Below the pieces are notes generated by a model. That model made no database searches, had not been told where the DNA came from, and saw only the letters and a program-made list of their open reading frames with translations. Shown in pieces: positions 2,014 to 5,379 of a stretch of 5,379 nucleotides of DNA (position 1 is its first letter; each line of letters begins with the position of its first letter). This stretch comes from Candidatus Latescibacterota bacterium. GTDB taxonomy: Bacteria; JAAXHH01; JABIQT01. The position numbers and the translations under genes are program-made. The stretch spans positions 1 to 5,379 of the forward strand of contig JABIQT010001079.1 of NCBI GenBank assembly GCA_018667995.1, in the 5' to 3' direction.

Positions 2014-2021
2014 GGAGGAGG
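2014..2021 (+). promoter_or_regulatory. Strong ribosome binding site deciding the Hen1 TTG start
   Basis: GGAGGAGG at 2014-2021 lies five bases before an in-frame TTG at 2027. It is the best Shine-Dalgarno match in the window. The frame has no ATG upstream of the conserved domain, and the other possible TTG at 1997 has no such site, so 2027 is preferred. Confidence 0.7.
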
Positions 2022-2026
2022 ACCCG

Positions 2027-2656
2027 TTGGAGGCCAACGGCGGTTTGCATAAACAGAGACTCCACGCGGTGAGAGATCTCCTGAAACAGAGTGGAGGAGC
2101 ACGCGTCCTGGATCTGGGCTGTGGAGACGGAAAGCTGATGCGCATGCTACTCAAGGAGAGCCAGTTTACCGAGATCGTCGGTATGGACGTCTCCCAGAGG
2201 AACCTCGACTGGGCTGCCGAGCGTCTTCGTTTGACGCAAATGCAGGCACACGACCTGCGTCGAATCAAATTGATCCGAGGATCGTTGGCATACCGAGATC
2301 TGCGCCTTTCAGGATACGATGCGGCGGCCATGGTGGAGGTCATTGAGCACTTGGATCCTGAGTCGCTATCAGCTTTCGAAGGAAGTATCTTTGAGTTTGC
2401 ACAGCCGCAGACTATCATAATCACCACACCAAATCGCGAATACAATGTGCGTTGGATGTCCCTGCCCGCAGGCGAGTTCCGGCATCACGACCACCGTTTT
2501 GAGTGGACCCGCACGGAATTTCAGTTCTGGTCCAGGCGTGTTGCCGATCGCTACGGATACAACGTCCATTTTGCTCCTGCCGGCCCAGAAGATCCAGTCA
2601 TAGGGGCTCCCTCTCAGATAGGTATTTTTAGCCGAGAGAGCGGCACCGATACTTAG
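2027..2656 (+). CDS. Hen1-type RNA 3'-terminal ribose 2'-O-methyltransferase, catalytic domain only
   Basis: The 209-residue protein matches the C-terminal methyltransferase domain of bacterial Hen1, which uses S-adenosylmethionine to methylate the 2'-OH of an RNA 3' end. The SAM-binding motif I is VLDLGCGDGK (27-36), and D54 in IVGMDVS is the acidic residue at the end of the second strand. The Hen1-specific metal site is present: E104, E107 and H108 in VEVIEHLD, and H154 or H156 in FRHHDHRFEW (151-160); alignment with plant HEN1 suggests H154. The Hen1 block TTPNREYNV (133-141) is also intact. Canonical bacterial Hen1 is about 450-470 residues with a large N-terminal domain and is encoded beside the Pnkp repair enzyme. 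Here the N-terminal half is absent: the frame closes at a TGA at 1946-1948, and the preceding space is occupied by the oxygenase gene. No Pnkp gene is next to it. The TTG start at 2027 follows a strong ribosome site; starting at 1997 would add ten residues. The family call is firm; the RNA substrate is unknown. Confidence 0.9.
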   Translation: MEANGGLHKQRLHAVRDLLKQSGGARVLDLGCGDGKLMRMLLKESQFTEIVGMDVSQRNLDWAAERLRLTQMQAHDLRRIKLIRGSLAYRDLRLSGYDAAAMVEVIEHLDPESLSAFEGSIFEFAQPQTIIITTPNREYNVRWMSLPAGEFRHHDHRFEWTRTEFQFWSRRVADRYGYNVHFAPAGPEDPVIGAPSQIGIFSRESGTDT

Positions 2657-2839
2657 GTGGACGCCGCGAAATTCCTACGGGTATGACACGGAGGGCACGG
2701 TCGCGAATTCACCTGGATGTGGCCCCATCAATTCCTTAGTTGGAGAAATGGAAACGTCCGTGTCTCTCTGGCTCAGATACTCAGCGCGTCCGATTCATCC
2801 GTAGAATCCAAAAACACAGCTCAGGCAAAGGGACAATCG

Positions 2840-4240
2840 ATGAGAAAACCCAATTTCGTCTTCATTCTTATTGATGACATGGGATGGACGGATCTTGGCT
2901 GCTACGGCAGCTCATTCTACGAGACGCCGAACATCGATCGCCTCGCCGCTTCCGGTATGCGTTTTACAGATGCCTATGCGGCCTGTCCAGTCTGTTCGCC
3001 CACCCGAGCAAGCATCCTCACGGGGCGTTATCCTGCGTCTGTCGGCGTCACCAATTTTATCGACTGGTCAGGGAAGTCCCATCCCGCCAAAGGTAAGCTG
3101 ATCGACGTCCCCTATCTGAGGCACTTGCCACTCGAGAATCATACCATAGCCAGTGCCCTTAAGGACGGCGGATACGATACATGGCATGTTGGCAAATGGC
3201 ATCTTGGCGGCCCGGAATACTATCCCGACAAGCAAGGTTTCGACGTGAATATAGGTGGTTGGGAACAGGGACATCCCCATCAGGGGTATTTCAGTCCCTG
3301 GGGAATAGACACGCTCGTCGATGGTCCGGATGGCGAATATCTAACGGACCGGTTGACGGACGAGGCCATTGACCTCATTCGAGAAAACAAGGACAAGCCT
3401 TTCTATCTCAATCTCTGGTATTATACGGTCCACACACCCATACAGGCCAAGCAGGATAAGATCGAAAAATACAGAACCAAAGCAGCATCAATGGGCCTTG
3501 ATACGGTAGACACCTTCGCCGAAGGGGACTACTTTCCCAGCGACCACAAAAAGGATCAACGGATCAAACGGCGTCTGGTCCAATCAGATCCGGTCTACGC
3601 AGCCATGATCGAGAGTCTTGATGAGAATGTCGGTAGGTTGTTGGATGTGCTTGAGGAAACCGGGTTGACCGATGATACTGTGGTCATCTTTTTCTCCGAT
3701 AACGGTGGACTGGCGACTTCCGAGGGATCTCCCACATGCAATGCGCCCTTGGCGGAGGGTAAGGGGTGGATGTACGAAGGCGGCACCCGTGAACCCCTTA
3801 TTGTAAAGTGGCCCGGTCACATCGGCGGAGGGACCATAAGCGATACCCCCGTCACCAGCACAGACTTCTACCCCACCATGCTCGAAATGGCTGGGCTGGA
3901 CCCTATCCCAGAGCAACACGCAGACGGGGAGAGTCTTCTGACTGTTCTTGAGGAGACGGGAACCGTAGATCGGGGCTGTATCTTCTGGCATTATCCCCAT
4001 TACGGCAATCAGGGAGGCACCCCCGGATCATCCGTTCGTTGCGGAGCGTACAAACTCATTGAATTCTATGAAGACGGCCGTTTGGAGCTTTACAATCTCA
4101 AAGAAGATTTGAACGAGTCAATGAATCTGGCTGAACAGGAACCTGCAACAACCGCGCGTTTGAAGGAACGGTTGGATCGCTGGCGGATAGACATCGAGGC
4201 TAAGATCCCTGCTCCCAATCCGGATTATGGGAAGGCGTGA
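2840..4240 (+). CDS. S1-family formylglycine-dependent sulfatase (arylsulfatase-like)
   Basis: The 466-residue protein hydrolyses a sulfate ester in the alkaline-phosphatase fold. The metal ligands D12 and D13 lie in ILIDDMGW. The modification motif is C52-S-P-T-R56, where Cys would be converted to formylglycine, followed by ASILTGRYP (57-65). Further expected active-site residues are K119 and H121 (GKWHLG), H198 (VHTP), D287 and N288 (FSDNGG) and K308 (EGKGW). The C-terminal subdomain includes FWHYPHYGNQGG (382-393) and ends with the typical SVRCGAYKLIEFYEDG...LYNL pattern. Length is normal. The start at 2840 has a modest AAGGGA site (2828-2833) six bases upstream and puts the first core strand at residue 5. 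An in-frame ATG at 2717 would add 41 residues that do not look like a signal peptide. With either start I see no export signal, unlike many polysaccharide sulfatases, so the site of action is uncertain. No maturase gene (FGE or anSME) is in the window. The substrate cannot be assigned. Confidence 0.95.
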   Translation: MRKPNFVFILIDDMGWTDLGCYGSSFYETPNIDRLAASGMRFTDAYAACPVCSPTRASILTGRYPASVGVTNFIDWSGKSHPAKGKLIDVPYLRHLPLENHTIASALKDGGYDTWHVGKWHLGGPEYYPDKQGFDVNIGGWEQGHPHQGYFSPWGIDTLVDGPDGEYLTDRLTDEAIDLIRENKDKPFYLNLWYYTVHTPIQAKQDKIEKYRTKAASMGLDTVDTFAEGDYFPSDHKKDQRIKRRLVQSDPVYAAMIESLDENVGRLLDVLEETGLTDDTVVIFFSDNGGLATSEGSPTCNAPLAEGKGWMYEGGTREPLIVKWPGHIGGGTISDTPVTSTDFYPTMLEMAGLDPIPEQHADGESLLTVLEETGTVDRGCIFWHYPHYGNQGGTPGSSVRCGAYKLIEFYEDGRLELYNLKEDLNESMNLAEQEPATTARLKERLDRWRIDIEAKIPAPNPDYGKA

Positions 4241-4314
4241 GTCTCCCCGCATGGCCCGTCGAAAACCACGGTGCAGTTTATTAGTGCTCGACAAGCTGAG
4301 TGCCCTATCGAGGT

Positions 4315-4330
4315 TACAATGTGCTACAAT
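4315..4330 (+). promoter_or_regulatory. Weak -10-like elements upstream of the malic enzyme
   Basis: TACAAT occurs twice, at 4315-4320 and 4325-4330, the second preceded by TG as in an extended -10 (TGCTACAAT). No good -35 hexamer lies at the proper distance from either. The second copy would start transcription almost on the ribosome binding site, so the first is the more workable. Low confidence. Confidence 0.2.
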
Positions 4331-4346
4331 ATAGAGGATGCTACCC

Positions 4347-5379
4347 ATGAATTCAGTGCCTGCACCAGTTCCTGAGGAAGATGTGGTATTGTTAGTGAAG
4401 AACCCCCACCGTGCTGGTTCGCTGGGACGCTTGTTGTCCTCGATCGGGAAGGAAGGCGCCCTGATTGGCGATATTGTCACTCAGTTCATCGGGCGCGATA
4501 GCTCTATCCGAGAGATTACCATATCGGTCCATGACCGACGGCACCTCCAGCAGATCGAAGATACAATCCGGGACAATACGGAAGCCGAGATTCTGGAAGT
4601 AAAGGACTTGGTATTCGAACGTCACGAGGGTGGAAAAATCAGGAGCGGGAGAACCCACCCGCTCGAGCGTTTGGACGACATGAGGTACATTTACACGCCA
4701 GGCGTGGCCCGGGTGTGCCGAGCGATTGAGGACGATCCAGAACTGGCGCGCCGGTATACTGGAATTGGCAGCAGCGTGGGAATTTTCACCAACGGGACCC
4801 GGGTGCTTGGTTTGGGAGACATCGGTGCGCTGGCCAGCATGCCGGTGATGGAAGGAAAGGCCGTCCTCTACGACCGGTTTGTTGGGTTGAGCGCCATACC
4901 CATATTGGTGGACACGCGTGACCCCGAGGCTTTCGTATCGACCGTCGAGGCCATCGCGCCGACGTTTGGCGGCATTCACCTGGAAGACATTCGTATACCT
5001 GACTGCTACTATATCGAAGATGAGTTGAACAGGCGTCTCTCAAAGCCCGTCATGCATGATGATCAGCATGGGACGGCTACCGTCACGCTTGCCGCCGTCC
5101 TGAGCGCCCTGCGTGAGACGGGGCGCCCTAGTCACGAGGGCATGGTCTGCGCCCAGATTGGTCTTGGGGCCGCTGGACTGGGCATAGCACGGTTGCTGAT
5201 GGATTACGGGTTCAATGTGGTGGGGGTGGATCCCAGCGCTGAGTCGCAGAAGCGATTCCAGGACTGTGGCGGCACAAATGTGACGCTCGATGAGGCGCTC
5301 TTAAAAGGAGATGTGGTCATTTCTACGACAGGGGTGGTCGATCTGATCAAACCGGAAATGATTCGTGAGGGACAGATCA
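4347..5379 (+). CDS. NAD-type malic enzyme with N-terminal ACT domain (3' end cut by window edge)
   Basis: The frame gives 344 codons and runs off the right edge; the family is usually about 450-480 residues. Malic enzyme decarboxylates malate to pyruvate and CO2 with reduction of NAD(P), linking the TCA cycle to pyruvate in the cytoplasm. Residues about 12-88 form an ACT-like domain (LLVKNPHRAGSLGRLLSSI, then a beta strand with REITISV), a likely small-ligand regulatory module. The catalytic part follows: Y116 in YTPGV, K171 in VMEGKAVLY, metal ligands E213 and D214 in HLEDI, and D238/D239 in HDDQHGT. The Rossmann domain has GLGAAG (272-277), and D295 in VVGVD at the end of the second strand favours NAD over NADP. 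The segment STTGVVDLIKPEM (326-338) fits the short Rossmann form of this subgroup. The ATG at 4347 is preceded by AGAGGA (4333-4338) with an eight-base spacer. It lies 106 bp after the sulfatase and may be transcribed separately. Confidence 0.94.
   Translation, partial: MNSVPAPVPEEDVVLLVKNPHRAGSLGRLLSSIGKEGALIGDIVTQFIGRDSSIREITISVHDRRHLQQIEDTIRDNTEAEILEVKDLVFERHEGGKIRSGRTHPLERLDDMRYIYTPGVARVCRAIEDDPELARRYTGIGSSVGIFTNGTRVLGLGDIGALASMPVMEGKAVLYDRFVGLSAIPILVDTRDPEAFVSTVEAIAPTFGGIHLEDIRIPDCYYIEDELNRRLSKPVMHDDQHGTATVTLAAVLSALRETGRPSHEGMVCAQIGLGAAGLGIARLLMDYGFNVVGVDPSAESQKRFQDCGGTNVTLDEALLKGDVVISTTGVVDLIKPEMIREGQI

Follow-up and report, generated by a model that had tools for sequence, protein, structure and literature searches.

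A stand-alone Hen1 methyltransferase domain probably derived from a reduced Pnkp/Hen1 RNA-repair cassette

The short hen1 gene and its neighbours

The window analysed in this study is a stretch of 5,379 nucleotides of bacterial DNA. A short hen1 gene encoding 209 aa was located at positions 2027–2656 of the + strand, with a TTG start codon at 2027 and a stop codon at 2654–2656. A Shine-Dalgarno-like sequence, GGAGGAGG, was found at 2014–2021 (+), 5 nt ahead of the TTG. The alignment placed this start within one residue of the ATG of the hen1 gene in G001, a genome of another family in the same order.

The upstream neighbour (1143–1970, +) encodes a PhyH-family 2-oxoglutarate dioxygenase (PF05721, E = 4.3e-14), and the downstream neighbour (2840–4240, +) encodes a sulfatase (PF00884, E = 9.8e-61). 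A malic-enzyme-type gene (4338–5379, +; malic PF00390, E = 3.7e-24) is truncated at the end of the window. On the − strand, positions 3–680 hold the N-terminal portion of a duplicated permease of the ADOP family (MacB-like), which is cut by the contig end. The genes next to hen1 are thus PhyH and sulfatase genes rather than pnkp, as a preliminary description of this DNA had stated; no Hen1 N-terminal domain (N-domain), Pnkp or pnkp remnant was detected anywhere in the 5,379-nt window. Neither Rfam nor tRNA scanning gave any match in the window.

PHYHD1-like PhyH enzymes demethylate 2′-O-methyl nucleosides, although the study showing this describes no action on RNA ends (PMC12709175). The PhyH neighbour was considered as an eraser of 2′-O-methyl groups and rejected: it matched no structure of PHYHD1 at E 0.01, and PhyH is absent beside hen1 in G001. 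The structures it did match, all weakly, were those of leucine hydroxylase and other PhyH enzymes.

Domain composition and predicted active site

The window gene encodes a true Hen1 methyltransferase domain with a complete predicted active site. Against the TIGR04074 (bacter_Hen1) profile, the NCBI equivalog model for the bacterial protein, the window protein matched only positions 264–462 of 462 (E = 1.5e-84), and its score of 284 bits is below the full-protein cut-off of 340 bits. The profile match indicates that the N-terminal ligase-activating domain of Hen1 is not encoded in this gene. Among solved structures, it matched the methyltransferase domains of Hen1 from Anabaena and Clostridium (3jwh, E = 1.4e-69). 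When its AlphaFold model (pLDDT 90) was used in a structure search, the first PDB matches were the CtHen1-C and AvHen1-C crystals (TM to target 0.92–0.94), with small-molecule enzymes far behind.

The class I SAM fold and the E-x-x-E-H ... H metal site are both present. The SAM-binding motif DLGCGDG comprises residues 29–35 (2111–2131, +), of which D29, G31, C32 and G33 are invariant in 32 Hen1 domains. The metal ligands E104, E107 and H108 lie in EVIEH (2336–2350, +), and the metal ligand H153 lies in the RHHDHRFEW block (2480–2506, +; FRHHDHRFEW with the preceding residue); all are invariant among the aligned Hen1 domains. In human HENMT1, the counterparts of E104, E107 and H108 are E132, E135 and H136 (PMC10781085). 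The spacing between H108 and H153 is 45 residues, the same as between human H136 and H181. The preliminary description had reported this Hen1 signature without the N-domain, and in that respect it was correct.

The window protein and the G001 Hen1, which is also short, keep 51 of the 52 near-invariant columns of full-length Hen1. Both have Ser at the position of S113 (2363–2365, +), which is occupied by Arg (or Gln) in full-length Hen1. This column is Arg in 80/80 relatives; among 99 matches with a detected N-domain it is Arg in 92, Gln in 7 and Ser in none, and it is His in a stand-alone Comamonas protein. The change from Arg to Ser, together with the loss of every known partner, might indicate that the methyltransferase, once the repair context was lost, switched to a new substrate, either a different class of RNA or a small molecule. 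We consider this highly improbable, because EVIEH, RHHDHRFEW and the 3′ ribose metal site are fully retained and the nearest structures are Hen1 domains.

Hen1 and Pnkp in the phylum

The genome carrying the window is a metagenome-assembled genome (MAG) of 1165 contigs, 85% complete with 4% contamination. The Hen1 N-domain (Hen1_L) was not found in it even at E 1, no Pnkp ligase was found, and the Pnkp search gave only generic phosphatase-domain matches. The genome-wide check proposed in the preliminary description therefore yielded neither pnkp nor a separate Hen1 N-domain in this 85%-complete genome.

Sixteen genomes of the window's phylum were searched, and hen1 was present in two, the window's own genome and G001 (97% complete). 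The G001 hen1 also encodes the methyltransferase domain only (204 aa, ATG start). The same short form therefore lies near the same gene in two families of the order: two genes downstream of the short hen1, G001 has a malic-enzyme-type gene 74% identical to that of the window, and among the 16 genomes this gene was restricted to these two at a threshold of E 1e-60. The remaining neighbours differ, being the intervening sulfatase and upstream PhyH in the window, and an intervening SnoaL-like protein and upstream glutaredoxin-thioredoxin reductase in G001; the sulfatase is absent from the G001 contig C221. A fragmented MAG with some contamination might raise the suspicion that the window contig was misassembled or misbinned, but this is hardly credible when the same short gene and the same malic-enzyme neighbour recur in an independent genome from another family.

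A split canonical system would have Pnkp and/or a separate Hen1 N-domain encoded elsewhere and missed by the incomplete assembly. Unlinked genes are indeed known in the Pnkp1-Rnl-Hen1 system (PMC4411300), and the own genome has gaps. We nevertheless regard this reading as very unlikely, given the Hen1_L and Pnkp searches of the own genome described above and the result for the 97%-complete G001, where no second Hen1 match was found and the Pnkp search gave only a stump and a phosphatase-domain match.

A pnkp remnant behind the G001 hen1

In G001, the beginning and the end of pnkp are still present, joined to each other, directly behind the short hen1. This stump of 57 codons lies at 2400–2573 on the − strand of contig C221 (locus L095), and the hen1 stop overlaps its start as ATGA. 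The first ~9 and last ~48 Pnkp residues are joined in frame, MKLTIPELS being followed by AKRSLALREFALGIEALERFIRKEPLRQGHECVFGALALESEPVDPRF. Intact Pnkp starts with MKITIPELSLVVLIG and ends with AKRSLALREF...VDPRL; the stump N-terminus resembles the MKITIPELS of an intact Pnkp (L007). In profile searches, the stump matched TIGR04075 (Pnkp) at positions 800–850 (E = 1.6e-22) and PNKP_ligase over its final 47 positions (331–377 of 377; E = 8.5e-18). The same hen1-pnkp ATGA overlap (offset −3) occurs in several intact cassettes. Judged from these alignments, the stump is pnkp after an in-frame deletion of ~795 codons. In intact relatives, Leu-Ser is found at both deletion edges, PELS/LVV and, in L009, GLS/AKRS (slashes mark the edges), which would fit a short-repeat deletion.

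Since the stump sits at the canonical ATGA overlap, the short hen1 is the remainder of a Pnkp/Hen1 cassette and no separate system. The preliminary description had taken it for a Hen1 outside such a cassette, and this claim has to be corrected. Its statement that the catalytic residues are intact stands, whereas the view that there is no obvious decay does not, with a pnkp stump right behind the short hen1 of G001. Of 26 near-invariant C-terminal Pnkp columns, only 2 are changed in the stump. The stump is therefore either young or under constraint itself, so that the timing is less straightforward; it may be a recent scar or a retained micro-protein.

On the same G001 contig, a glutaredoxin-glutaredoxin-thioredoxin reductase fusion (L095, 3195–3929, −) has an apparent large in-frame internal deletion. 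The N-terminus of the reductase is joined to a short C-terminus (GPELMER/KADCRL), the same type of scar as in the nearby pnkp stump. This deletion suggests that the whole locus may be eroding.

Phylogeny and selection

The scars in G001, the patchy presence of hen1 (2/16 genomes) and the TTG start of the window gene raise the question of a dying relic, that is, a Hen1 methyltransferase still in frame, no longer useful and due to be lost like pnkp. The sequence divergence makes this unlikely. The window and G001 short Hen1 are 64% identical over 198 codons despite saturated synonymous divergence (pS 0.77, pN 0.26, pN/pS 0.33); the pN/pS of the malic-enzyme gene pair is 0.22. All catalytic residues are kept in both short forms, as are the 51 near-invariant columns, and in the trees the branches of the short forms do not exceed those of comparable full-length Hen1 in length.

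The two short Hen1 are sisters (bootstrap 98, SH-aLRT 91), nested inside full-length Hen1. The tree check suggested in the preliminary description, like the structure search, grouped the window protein with Hen1 and not with small-molecule methyltransferases. The simplest reading of the sequences is that loss of the N-domain preceded the split of the two lineages and that the methyltransferase has been selected since. Possibly, however, each lineage lost the N-domain on its own at the same domain boundary; part of the conserved divergence would then be older than the loss, and selection on the short form would be less well supported. The conservation of the short-form methyltransferase is that expected of an active enzyme, and its activity is predicted.

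Rarity of the short form

Outside the phylum, the 80 nearest relatives (GTDB contigs) were inspected individually. Full-length Hen1 was found in a single frame in 75 of them; in three (L010, L077, L084) the N-domain is in a second frame, and in two (L028, L032) Hen1 is cut by the contig end, so that a genuine short Hen1 occurred in 0/80. A pnkp gene was recognisable in the available DNA of 74/80. The Latescibacterota relative L019 belongs to another phylum, in which 23 of 64 genomes have Hen1; all 23 match from TIGR04074 position 1, and none is short. All four clear Hen1 proteins from viral contigs have the N-domain. The lack of a genuine short form among these 80 relatives, the 23 Hen1 of the L019 phylum and the four viral proteins indicates that the short form is rare.

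At several GC-rich Hen1 loci (L014, L022, L037, L082 and similar ones), the open frame extends far upstream of the Hen1 domain. These long upstream frames are probably over-extended starts and not extra domains. The Hen1 of Rhizobium pRlX5 was considered as a candidate short form and rejected, being full length with pnkp intact. A phage or plasmid origin of the window gene was also rejected: there was no plasmid nucleotide match, phage Hen1-like matches were ~27% identical, and the clear viral-contig Hen1 are full length. A viral-contig scan with the single window protein as query gave no matches.

A reduced cassette and its possible role

In the canonical system, RNA ends are healed by Pnkp and the 3′ end so healed is methylated at its 2′-OH by Hen1, whose N-domain activates (unlocks) the Pnkp ligase; Pnkp and Hen1 have been described as always being in one operon (PMC4411300). 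The best explanation, which we regard as likely, is that in this lineage a canonical hen1-pnkp RNA-repair cassette has shrunk to the methyltransferase part of Hen1 and that the enzyme still methylates RNA 3′ ends. The short form on which this explanation rests was found in two genomes only.

The N-domain would have been lost before the two lineages split. Because Hen1-N activates the Pnkp ligase, this loss alone leaves even an intact Pnkp unable to seal in that way. The pnkp gene would have been deleted wholly in the window lineage and, in the G001 lineage, except for 57 codons. From what is known of the family, the surviving Hen1 would use SAM and Mn/Mg to 2′-O-methylate the 3′-terminal ribose. 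With the N-domain and Pnkp gone, only methylation of an already free 3′-OH remains possible; the substrates would be RNAs that already have such an end, and the reaction would be uncoupled from kinase, phosphatase and ligase. The likely benefit would be the shielding of some RNA ends from 3′ exonucleases or tailing. As a minor possibility, Hen1 may be a free-standing RNA 3′-end capping enzyme in this lineage, and the 57-residue Pnkp remnant of G001 may be retained as its micro-protein partner and not be debris.

The role known for bacterial Hen1 is that of a repair subunit, and it is through its N-domain that RNA sealing depends on methylation. An uncoupled Hen1, together with the pnkp deletion scar of a relative, suggests that selection can keep terminal 2′-O-methylation without repair. 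With the window Hen1, the idea of an RNA 3′-end mark outside repair in bacteria can be put to the test, and so can the way in which a HEN1-like solo enzyme arises.

Comparison with known systems

The window Hen1 has the same methyltransferase domain as bacterial Pnkp-Hen1 and is up to 62% identical to aligned full-length homologues. G001 also keeps the hen1-pnkp order and the ATGA overlap, with pnkp as a stump. The difference is that the window system has no Hen1 N-domain, kinase, phosphatase or ligase. In the second known system, Pnkp1-Rnl-Hen1 (complex 4xrp), the Hen1 methyltransferase is likewise encoded away from the end-healing enzymes (PMC4411300). However, that Hen1 retains a second domain and is 24% identical to the window Hen1 in the structure match, whereas the window Hen1 has no extra domain; Rnl and Pnkp1 are encoded elsewhere in that system, and for the window Hen1 the Hen1_L and Pnkp searches turned up no partner.

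Animal HEN1/HENMT1 (5wy0, 4xcx) also consist of a methyltransferase domain without the bacterial N-domain and have the same metal site, but they are 36–38% identical to the window Hen1 in the structure match and act on Argonaute-linked small RNAs. The architectural likeness would be convergent, through domain loss. Protection of small RNAs as by eukaryotic HEN1 had been put forward in the preliminary description. Piwi/Argonaute (PF02171) was not found in the 16 phylum genomes, with a positive control that matched, and such a eukaryote-like small-RNA pathway is therefore unsupported.

The stand-alone Hen1 domain of the Comamonas sp. C11 plasmid (WP_256497024.1; L099, NZ_CP101744.1 3905–4594, +) is 229 aa long, matches TIGR04074 positions 261–462 only and is annotated merely as a methyltransferase-domain protein. 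Its gene lies between TraR/DksA and cfa genes, and pnkp was not found in the stretch read around it. It differs from the window Hen1 in its low identity (38%), long branch and other neighbours, and it is apparently independent. Solo Hen1 has thus probably arisen more than once; if the capping role holds, the window and Comamonas proteins would represent the repeated emergence of a solo bacterial HEN1 via domain loss. We found no published description of a bacterial Hen1 reduced to the methyltransferase domain, in a search covering mainly openly accessible literature.

A different architecture was observed on the viral contig IMGVR_UViG_3300002461_000623 (L135), where an 809-aa protein (2281–4710) consists of a full-length Hen1 fused to a Pnkp ligase domain. 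The fusion has no kinase or phosphatase, and the adjoining gene (1172–2215, −) appears by eye to encode an Rnl2-type RNA ligase.
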